Shown here piece by piece: positions 62,389-62,928 of a DNA stretch of 64,000 nucleotides. Numbering within the stretch: the stretch's first letter is position 1; every line of letters starts with the position of its first letter. Below the pieces are notes generated by a model. The model was given only the letters and a program-made list of their open reading frames with translations, was not told where the DNA came from and ran no database searches. Both the position numbers and the translations under genes were made by a program. The stretch covers positions 1 through 64,000 of the forward strand of contig JAJPHL010000066.1 of NCBI GenBank assembly GCA_021325275.1. The letters are read 5' to 3'. The stretch comes from Terriglobia bacterium. Its GTDB lineage: Bacteria > Acidobacteriota > Terriglobia > JAJPHL01.

Positions 62389-62928
62389 CTACTGCTTCGG
62401 AGCGGGTTTGATGCGCGCGCACACCGTGTGCGCCCCCGTGGGATCGATCGCCGAGTTGCCTTGCTCGATGTGCTGGATGATGCCGTTGCCATCCACCACG
62501 AATGTCGCGCGATTGGCGATTCCGACATCTTCATTCAAGATGCCGTATTCCTTCGAGGTTTTGTGATTGAGATCGCTGAGCAGGGGGAACTTCACGCCGA
62601 TCTCGTCGGCAAATCGTTTGTTCGCCGGCGAAGAGTCCACGCTGATTCCAAGGACTTGAGTTTGCGCTTCTTCGAATTTGGCGATATCAGCCTGATACGC
62701 CTTCAATTCTTTGGTTCAACCACCCGTAAACGCGAGCACGTAGAACGCCAGCACCACCGTCTTGCCCTTGTAGTCGCTCAACTTGACCATCTTGCCGTTT
62801 TGGTCGCGCAGAGAGAACTCCGGAGCTTTGTCGCCCACTTTCAAATTCGTGGGGACAGGAGGGGTGGGCTGGGCGAACGCCGCCGTGCTCAGGACAATCG
62901 CAAGCAGGATCGCGCCCATTACCTTCAT
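62389..62928 (-). CDS. Probable selenocysteine peroxiredoxin (TGA-encoded catalytic residue)
   Basis: Read through an in-frame TGA at 62718-62716, one frame gives a 179-residue exported peroxiredoxin. It has a signal peptide (VMGAILLAIVLSTAAFAQ), the AhpC/TSA start VGDKAPEFSLRDQNGKMVKL, and AFTGG-TGA-TKEL, where the TGA takes the place of the peroxidatic cysteine (residue 71). The continuation QTQVLGISVDSSPANKRFAD, FPLLSDLNHKTSKEYG and ATFVVDGNGIIQHIEQG is fully conserved peroxiredoxin sequence. TGGU agrees with the TxxU motif of known selenocysteine peroxiredoxins. A SECIS-like hairpin follows the TGA at the right distance. C170 could resolve the selenenic acid. It would reduce peroxides in the periplasm. 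The alternative is a nonsense mutation. The gene carries GGAGGT upstream. Confidence 0.82.
62680..62701 (-). promoter_or_regulatory. SECIS-like hairpin for selenocysteine insertion
   Basis: On the minus strand, 14 nt after the TGA, GGCG (62701-62698) pairs with CGCC (62683-62680) and UAUCA (62697-62693) with UGAUA (62689-62685). One U is bulged (62684) and the apical loop is GGC. Bacterial SECIS elements lie within about 16-37 nt of the UGA and present a G-containing apical loop to SelB, so location and loop agree. The bulge is on the 3' side, whereas the E. coli fdhF element has it on the 5' side. Confidence 0.65.

Follow-up and report, generated by a model that had tools for sequence, protein, structure and literature searches.

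A probable exported selenocysteine peroxiredoxin with a conserved C-terminal cysteine in Acidobacteriota

In the window (the whole analysed stretch of 64,000 nucleotides of contig JAJPHL010000066.1 from a Terriglobia bacterium), a peroxiredoxin-like reading frame is crossed by a TGA codon at the position of the catalytic residue. Does this codon specify selenocysteine (Sec), and what kind of enzyme would the gene then encode? The earlier note placed the gene correctly at 62389–62928 without giving its strand. The gene lies on the minus strand, and the plus-strand translation of the same interval is unrelated. Its features are as follows, with the core loci defined below.

62389..62928, minus strand: gene for a very likely Sec-containing AhpC/TSA-fold (peroxiredoxin) protein, 179 aa with U71, stop codon included; model pLDDT 92.7
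62928, minus strand: start codon ATG, from the sequence
62872..62928, minus strand: predicted signal peptide MKVMGAILLAIVLSTAAFA, with a predicted end, from sequence and hydropathy
62737..62739, minus strand: codon of V64, Val in place of the peroxiredoxin active-site Pro (–7), from the core-locus alignment
62725..62727, minus strand: codon of T68, conserved Thr at –3 of Sec, T in 87/87 core loci
62718..62716, minus strand: in-frame TGA, codon 71, very probably Sec, at the peroxidatic position (TxxU), where M. tuberculosis AhpE has its active-site Cys
62680..62701, minus strand: putative SECIS hairpin with loop GGC and a 9-bp stem whose 3' arm has a single bulged U; UGA-to-loop distance 23 nt
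62509..62511, minus strand: codon of R140, invariant Arg (ANR-TF) in 53/53 members, aligned to GIANR of AhpE
62419..62421, minus strand: codon of C170, the protein's only Cys, at +99 from U; by conservation a candidate resolving residue
62391–62389, minus strand: stop codon TAG, from the sequence

Read with the TGA as a residue, the gene gives MKVMGAILLAIVLSTAAFAQ...AFYVLAFTGGUTKELKAYQADIAKF...AIDPTGAHTVCARIKPAPKQ (179 residues), a translation that holds no stop apart from TGA71. The Pfam AhpC-TSA match runs across the TGA (residues 31–154, 8.4e-41, 139.2 bits against a cut-off of 26), and the best solved relatives by sequence, the structures of M. tuberculosis AhpE (4.9e-29, 104 bits), align their active-site Cys with it. 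These results bear out what the earlier note had read from the letters, namely a TGA exactly at the catalytic Cys of a peroxiredoxin, in an AFTGG-x-TKEL context (here AFTGG-U-TKEL), within a frame that is open and family-like on either side. Its expectation that gene callers would return pieces of 70 and about 105 residues agrees with the standard minus-strand ORFs of 70 aa (62716–62928) and 105 aa (62389–62706). With all 15 listed NCBIfam models scoring under their cut-offs for this protein, an automatic pipeline may well break the gene in two. No promoter- or terminator-like sites were found in a consensus scan of 62200–63100, and no Rfam family matches the window at gathering thresholds. 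On the plus strand, a 356-codon antisense open frame (62428–63498) overlaps most of the gene; it is mechanical and was not taken as a gene. The divergent neighbour (62993–63733, plus strand, 246 aa) has a signal-like start and resembles what we take to be a PaiB-type FMN-binding protein.

The window's own genome (6.86 Mb in 75 contigs, 97.6% complete) contains selA (523.5 bits, cut-off 267.9), selB (333.8 bits, cut-off 242.25) and selD (365.1 bits, cut-off 125). The Rfam tRNA-Sec model gives 12 matches in this genome, the best of which (69.4 bits, cut-off 47, at C63:19870, L001) is identified by ARAGORN as tRNA-Sec with anticodon UCA; two others above the cut-off were rejected as tRNA-Ser. All four genes, whose absence would have spoken against Sec, are thus present. 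The selD gene carries one in-frame TGA of its own, within GVKAAGUASKLSP. Among the 17 AhpC-TSA matches in the genome, 12 have no in-frame stop and five hold an in-frame TGA: the focal gene, a paralog with the same hairpin (C27:118462, L115), a BCP-like TPGU protein (C56:33956, L114), a WUPYC protein (C44:5823, L117) and a WUGC protein (C71:6655, L125). With selD counted, the genome holds at least six putative selenoprotein genes. An AhpC-TSA match that is free of in-frame stops and contains CPTC (C63:21047, L127) is situated some 1.1 kb away from the gene for tRNA-Sec.

We then consider the TGA in relatives. Of 396 Acidobacteriota genomes, a sample of the phylum, 97 hold a match at E<=1e-25. 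In 62 genomes the best match reaches E<=8.1e-33, and 60 of these 62 matches contain an in-frame TGA; the two without one, from G288 and G342, are Cys proteins of a different kind (L130, L131). As to whether homologs carry U or C at this site, the alignment places TGA at the peroxidatic column in 89 of the 90 fetched loci, the focal gene among them. The sole exception, L108, has the aligned codon TTG, yet its TGA and hairpin are present in a frame broken by indels or frameshifts, and its C-terminal Cys codon is replaced by Tyr. Setting aside L109 and L110, which belong to another Sec-peroxiredoxin type, leaves 87 core loci (79 distinct). Two of these, the focal gene (L021) and L023, come from the window's own genome, and all 87 carry TGA at the peroxidatic column. 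A contig scan, which reaches close relatives only, returned 58 loci, 56 from Acidobacteriota and two of another Sec-peroxiredoxin type from Deltaproteobacteria.

Selection was compared across the TGA in 75 locus pairs with 78–98.5% identity after it, of which the 37 with dS below 1.5 were kept. The dN/dS medians are 0.093 for the part that follows the TGA (37 pairs, hairpin excluded) and 0.095 for the 40 codons before it (those of the 37 pairs with a defined value), in a gap-free comparison where indels inflate some upstream values and pairs share sequences. By this measure, purifying selection is equal on both sides of the TGA. A pseudogene or sequencing error, in which the TGA is a disabling nonsense change and the split into ORFs of 70 and 105 aa is to be taken at face value, retains a negligible probability and is rejected, since the TGA recurs in intact frames across the 87 core loci (79 distinct), dN/dS is near 0.09 on either side, the focal frame has no other stop, and the further disabling mutations in relatives that the earlier note named as a sign of decay appear only as the broken frame of L108.

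Scarcely more credible is a UGA that acts mainly as a regulated terminator, so that a 70-aa protein is made and selenium-dependent read-through serves as a sensor. Sec decoding of UGA and termination are competing outcomes, which suits such a role; however, a 70-aa protein would be missing the catalytic residue and the larger part of the domain, and purifying selection is equally strong on the half that follows the TGA.

The TGA-bearing gene also co-occurs with the Sec machinery. selA is found in 56 of the 60 genomes with a strong TGA match versus 196 of 336 others (Fisher p 2e-8, kinship ignored), and the four without it (G141, G227, G267, G315) are all draft assemblies of 72–91% completeness. 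No conserved operon partner or reductase neighbour was found among ORFs of >=80 aa in flanks of <=2.5 kb, the largest cluster occurring in 12 of 79 loci. Four loci, among them L065 (–600 to –297 relative to its TGA), have adjacent ORFs that resemble the post-TGA part of a second gene copy.

After the UGA, the transcript is predicted to form the hairpin GGCGUAUCA-GGC-UGAUA-u-CGCC with the loop GGC. The gap is exactly 14 nt, placing the hairpin at +15 to +36, as the earlier note had said of a stem-loop with a G-containing apical loop. In the available text of PMC13188914, the bacterial SECIS model comprises a 3–9 nt apical loop, a 4–16 bp stem, a G in the first two loop positions, 16–37 nt spacing and an MFE at or below –7.5 kcal/mol. 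The focal gene agrees with this model as given there (loop GGC, 9 bp, spacing 23, –8.7 kcal/mol). The local MFE of –8.7 kcal/mol has a z of –2.8 against dinucleotide shuffles; because the fold is unremarkable within its 81-nt context (z –0.08), the hairpin was judged by conservation and not by energy. Counting a lower stem would extend it to 14 bp and –10.8 kcal/mol in the focal gene, but this lower stem was rejected, with +10/+39 mostly unpaired in relatives. A 6-pair hairpin from RNAalifold (–2.3 kcal/mol, whole alignment) was set aside in favour of the 9-pair form, in which the double changes lie.

Across 73 distinct sequences, 93.0% of cells pair in the 9-pair hairpin, and double-change cells number 18 versus 3.5 in shuffles (0/500 as high), while 'further pair types' are not raised (7 versus 6.8 in shuffles). 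Sliding one arm by 1–3 columns lowers the pairing to 11–62%. The compensatory changes include GCG...ATC to GCC...ATG (Ile to Met) or GCA...ATT, and TAT...GAT to TAC...GGT (Asp to Gly); at the hairpin, RNA pairing appears to steer the protein sequence. Furthermore, a synonymous-codon null built on the genes' own codon usage has a mean of –3.7 kcal/mol against the observed –8.1 kcal/mol, 58 of the 73 sequences are individually significant against it (p<0.05), and no other offset in the genes equals the hairpin energy (next –6.4, median –2.4 kcal/mol). In a strict scan of the published SECIS model, 57 of the 73 distinct sequences pass versus 38 of 292 synonymous-null sequences, in keeping with the SECIS-like element first proposed for this gene and supported by the covariation. 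In 15 of the 16 failures the hairpin can still be drawn; 11 of these have energies equal to the limit or slightly too weak for it (–5.3 to –7.5), and four are stronger than the limit and were missed through the scan's end rule. The scan finds hairpins for the own-genome paralog C27 and the BCP-like C56, and because it finds none after the TGA of selD, C44 and C71, it is neither complete nor proof. The genome (6.86 Mb) has just two occurrences of the motif TATCAGNCTGATA, one in the focal gene and one in a Sec paralog, and the reversed-pattern control has 0. More distant members often have other sequences at the hairpin position. One locus, L048, has the TGA and an open frame yet no clear SECIS hairpin, and its sister L151 also differs there.

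Reading of the UGA as Trp or Cys, through suppression or a reassigned code, would, like any near-cognate read-through, yield a full-length product. Low-level misreading may occur, but as an account of the gene we consider this reading very improbable, as the site aligns with the AhpE active-site Cys, the Sec machinery is complete and the SECIS hairpin is conserved; general code reassignment is rejected on selA, selB and the 12 of 17 AhpC-TSA matches without an in-frame stop. By comparison, the selenoprotein reading is strongly supported because Sec machinery, conserved TGA, purifying selection and covarying hairpin all favour it. The sequence is very likely a selenoprotein gene, and we are highly confident that UGA71 would be decoded as Sec.

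The AlphaFold2 model of the protein (pLDDT 92.7) has Bcp4 (Z 25.6, rmsd 1.5) and the 1-Cys peroxiredoxin AhpE of M. tuberculosis (Z 25.4, rmsd 1.4 over 148 residues, 43% identity) as its nearest solved structures by fold. The motifs LAFTG-x-C/U and GIANR are common to AhpE and the focal protein; AhpE keeps its Cys and Pro, whereas the focal protein combines Sec with a signal-like N-terminus and a Cys near the C-terminus. T68, U71, R140 and C170 are invariant in 53/53 aligned members (55 non-redundant rows minus L059 and L106). A single Cys follows U in 86 of the 87 core loci, at +95 to +106 in 85 and at +86 in L106; L096 has a Cys at +99 plus three more.

Does a Cys form of this protein exist? 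Every stop-free match that the phylum search gave at E<=1e-25 was fetched, 37 in all, and no Cys form of the subfamily was found in this range: 37/37 are Cys proteins of other types, which carry Cys at the peroxidatic column but lack one between +95 and +106. Any second Cys in these proteins falls at +2 to +6, +19, +36, +59, +112 or +123. Another 23 matches were picked for their TGA and comprise 15 members with the C-terminal Cys (L150–L161, L187–L189) and eight other Sec types (L162–L169). Sec is present in 102/102 loci recognised as members by the C-terminal Cys, 15 of them picked for TGA. In the phylum-search sample, the subfamily is found only with Sec, in Acidobacteriota. Two further Sec-peroxiredoxin types occur in this phylum, one with AFTGGU-x-xECKSLR, a signal-like N-terminus and Cys at +4 (grouped as L164–L166), the other with PLxWTPVU and no obvious signal (grouped as L162, L163, L167 and L169).

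In a tree of 102 rows, the 75 Sec rows with the C-terminal Cys do not form one clade. A core of 61 rows (support 95/87) holds no Cys row, and the 14 other Sec rows, including the own-genome paralog L023, lie on an unresolved backbone. The tree requires two changes in all, and 20% of the 200 bootstrap trees recover a single origin, which leaves the origin count uncertain. Rows >85% identical to a kept row, nine distant own-genome AhpC-TSA proteins, L170–L189, and L134 and L141, whose Cys the search motif missed, were left out.

The core is further set apart at the active site. The Pro of PxxxTxxC is called strictly conserved in peroxiredoxins in the available text of PMC5719442. The focal protein, with Val at –7, departs from the strict signature PxxxTxxC/U, and the 87 core loci have V in 74, I in 6, P in 5, S in 1 and F in 1 at this position (non-Pro in 82). 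Pro is present at –7 in all 37 fetched Cys homologs and in the eight other Sec types L162–L169. Among the 15 distant members, eight lack Pro and seven have it, and two have Ser for Thr at –3; because seven keep Pro, its loss marks the core and not the whole subfamily. The change from Pro to V/I/S/F in 82 of 87 core loci, set against its retention in 37/37 Cys homologs, could also indicate an altered active site in a Sec thiol-disulfide oxidoreductase or chaperone instead of a peroxidase. This we regard as unlikely, since T68 and R140 are invariant and the protein is closest in fold and sequence to AhpE and Bcp proteins.

C170, the candidate residue for recycling such a peroxidase, lies in the last helix of the model (164–172). 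An external thiol might directly reduce the selenenic acid in a one-Sec enzyme, C170 then being structural or subunit-linking; the closest structures, those of AhpE, are titled 1-Cys peroxiredoxins. We count this possible, at rather less than an even chance, because C170 is kept in these members even though 86/87 core loci have no other Cys after U, which fits a paired redox role. The AhpE-type 1-Cys definition of no second candidate redox Cys also does not describe these proteins, as C170 is invariant in 53/53. C170 is thus the likely resolving residue for U71, a step that its conservation makes somewhat better than even. In Prx5-type atypical 2-Cys peroxiredoxins, the resolving Cys lies about 104 residues after the peroxidatic Cys; this spacing and late place of the second Cys are presumably similar to those of the focal protein. 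No Prx5 is among the sequence or fold matches shown, which excludes nothing.

The N-terminal segment MKVMGAILLAIVLSTAAFAQP is judged a signal peptide by hydropathy only, and a hydrophobic stretch upstream of the domain is found in 86/86 core loci long enough for the test, which looks by hydropathy only for 12 residues of mean hydropathy >=1.6 in the open frame. Five core loci have a lipobox-like Cys. The signal peptide and exported selenoprotein of the earlier note are consistent with these data, and the focal protein is probably exported.

Taken together, the best explanation is that the product is an exported, AhpE-like AhpC/TSA-fold peroxidase with Sec as the peroxidatic residue. SelB and Sec-tRNA(Sec) would bind the hairpin and insert Sec at UGA71, and the protein would be secreted and fold outside the cytoplasm. 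The U71 selenolate, held by T68 and R140, would reduce H2O2 or organic peroxides and be converted to selenenic acid, with which C170 of the last helix may form an Se–S bond. A thioredoxin-like donor may then reduce the U71–C170 bond.

According to the available text of PMC13188914, PMC9312934 and PMC2398784, the TxxU Sec peroxiredoxins form an established family of selenoproteins in bacteria, in line with the earlier note. Family counts are given in the available text of PMC5029168; for Acidobacteria, that of PMC1794560 lists four selenoproteins in three families in 2006, and that of PMC12013277 (deep-Sep) one Acidobacteriota genome with three known selenoprotein genes. Our comparison reveals that the focal gene and the bacterial Sec peroxiredoxins (PF00578/COG1225, TxxU; e.g. 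Eubacterium acidaminophilum, cited in the available text of PMC13188914) have the AhpC/TSA domain in common, together with the peroxidatic Sec, T at –3 (available text of PMC13188914 and PMC9312934) and a SECIS after the UGA. The focal protein differs in its signal-like N-terminus, Val for Pro and conserved Cys 99 residues after U, and scores 83.4 bits with the NCBIfam PrxU model (NF040737), below the cut-off of 270. The peroxiredoxin-like UxxC and UGC selenoproteins of thiol-disulfide type, which C44 (WUPYC) and C71 (WUGC) resemble one each, belong to the same Pfam family but have a Cys adjoining or three residues from Sec that the focal gene lacks. Neither an exported Sec-only peroxiredoxin, nor a C-terminal resolving Cys, nor a loss of the proline was found in the available text of the open-access literature on Sec peroxiredoxins. 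The focal gene is a variant of a known Sec-peroxiredoxin kind, not categorically new.

Beyond this, we tentatively propose, at slightly below even chances, a Sec-only exported peroxidase subfamily in which the core has Val or Ile for Pro and a U71–C170 selenylsulfide would replace the Cys–Cys cycle. If so, the chemistry of the subfamily would depend on selenium, and the SECIS element would constrain the protein sequence itself, the I-to-M and D-to-G replacements following the pairing. The proline loss suggests peroxiredoxin-type chemistry without the standard active-site proline. Cys relatives exist outside the subfamily, and none was found within it in 102 loci; the subfamily therefore offers a natural case for asking why, throughout a phylum, a single site of an apparently exported protein retains selenium.
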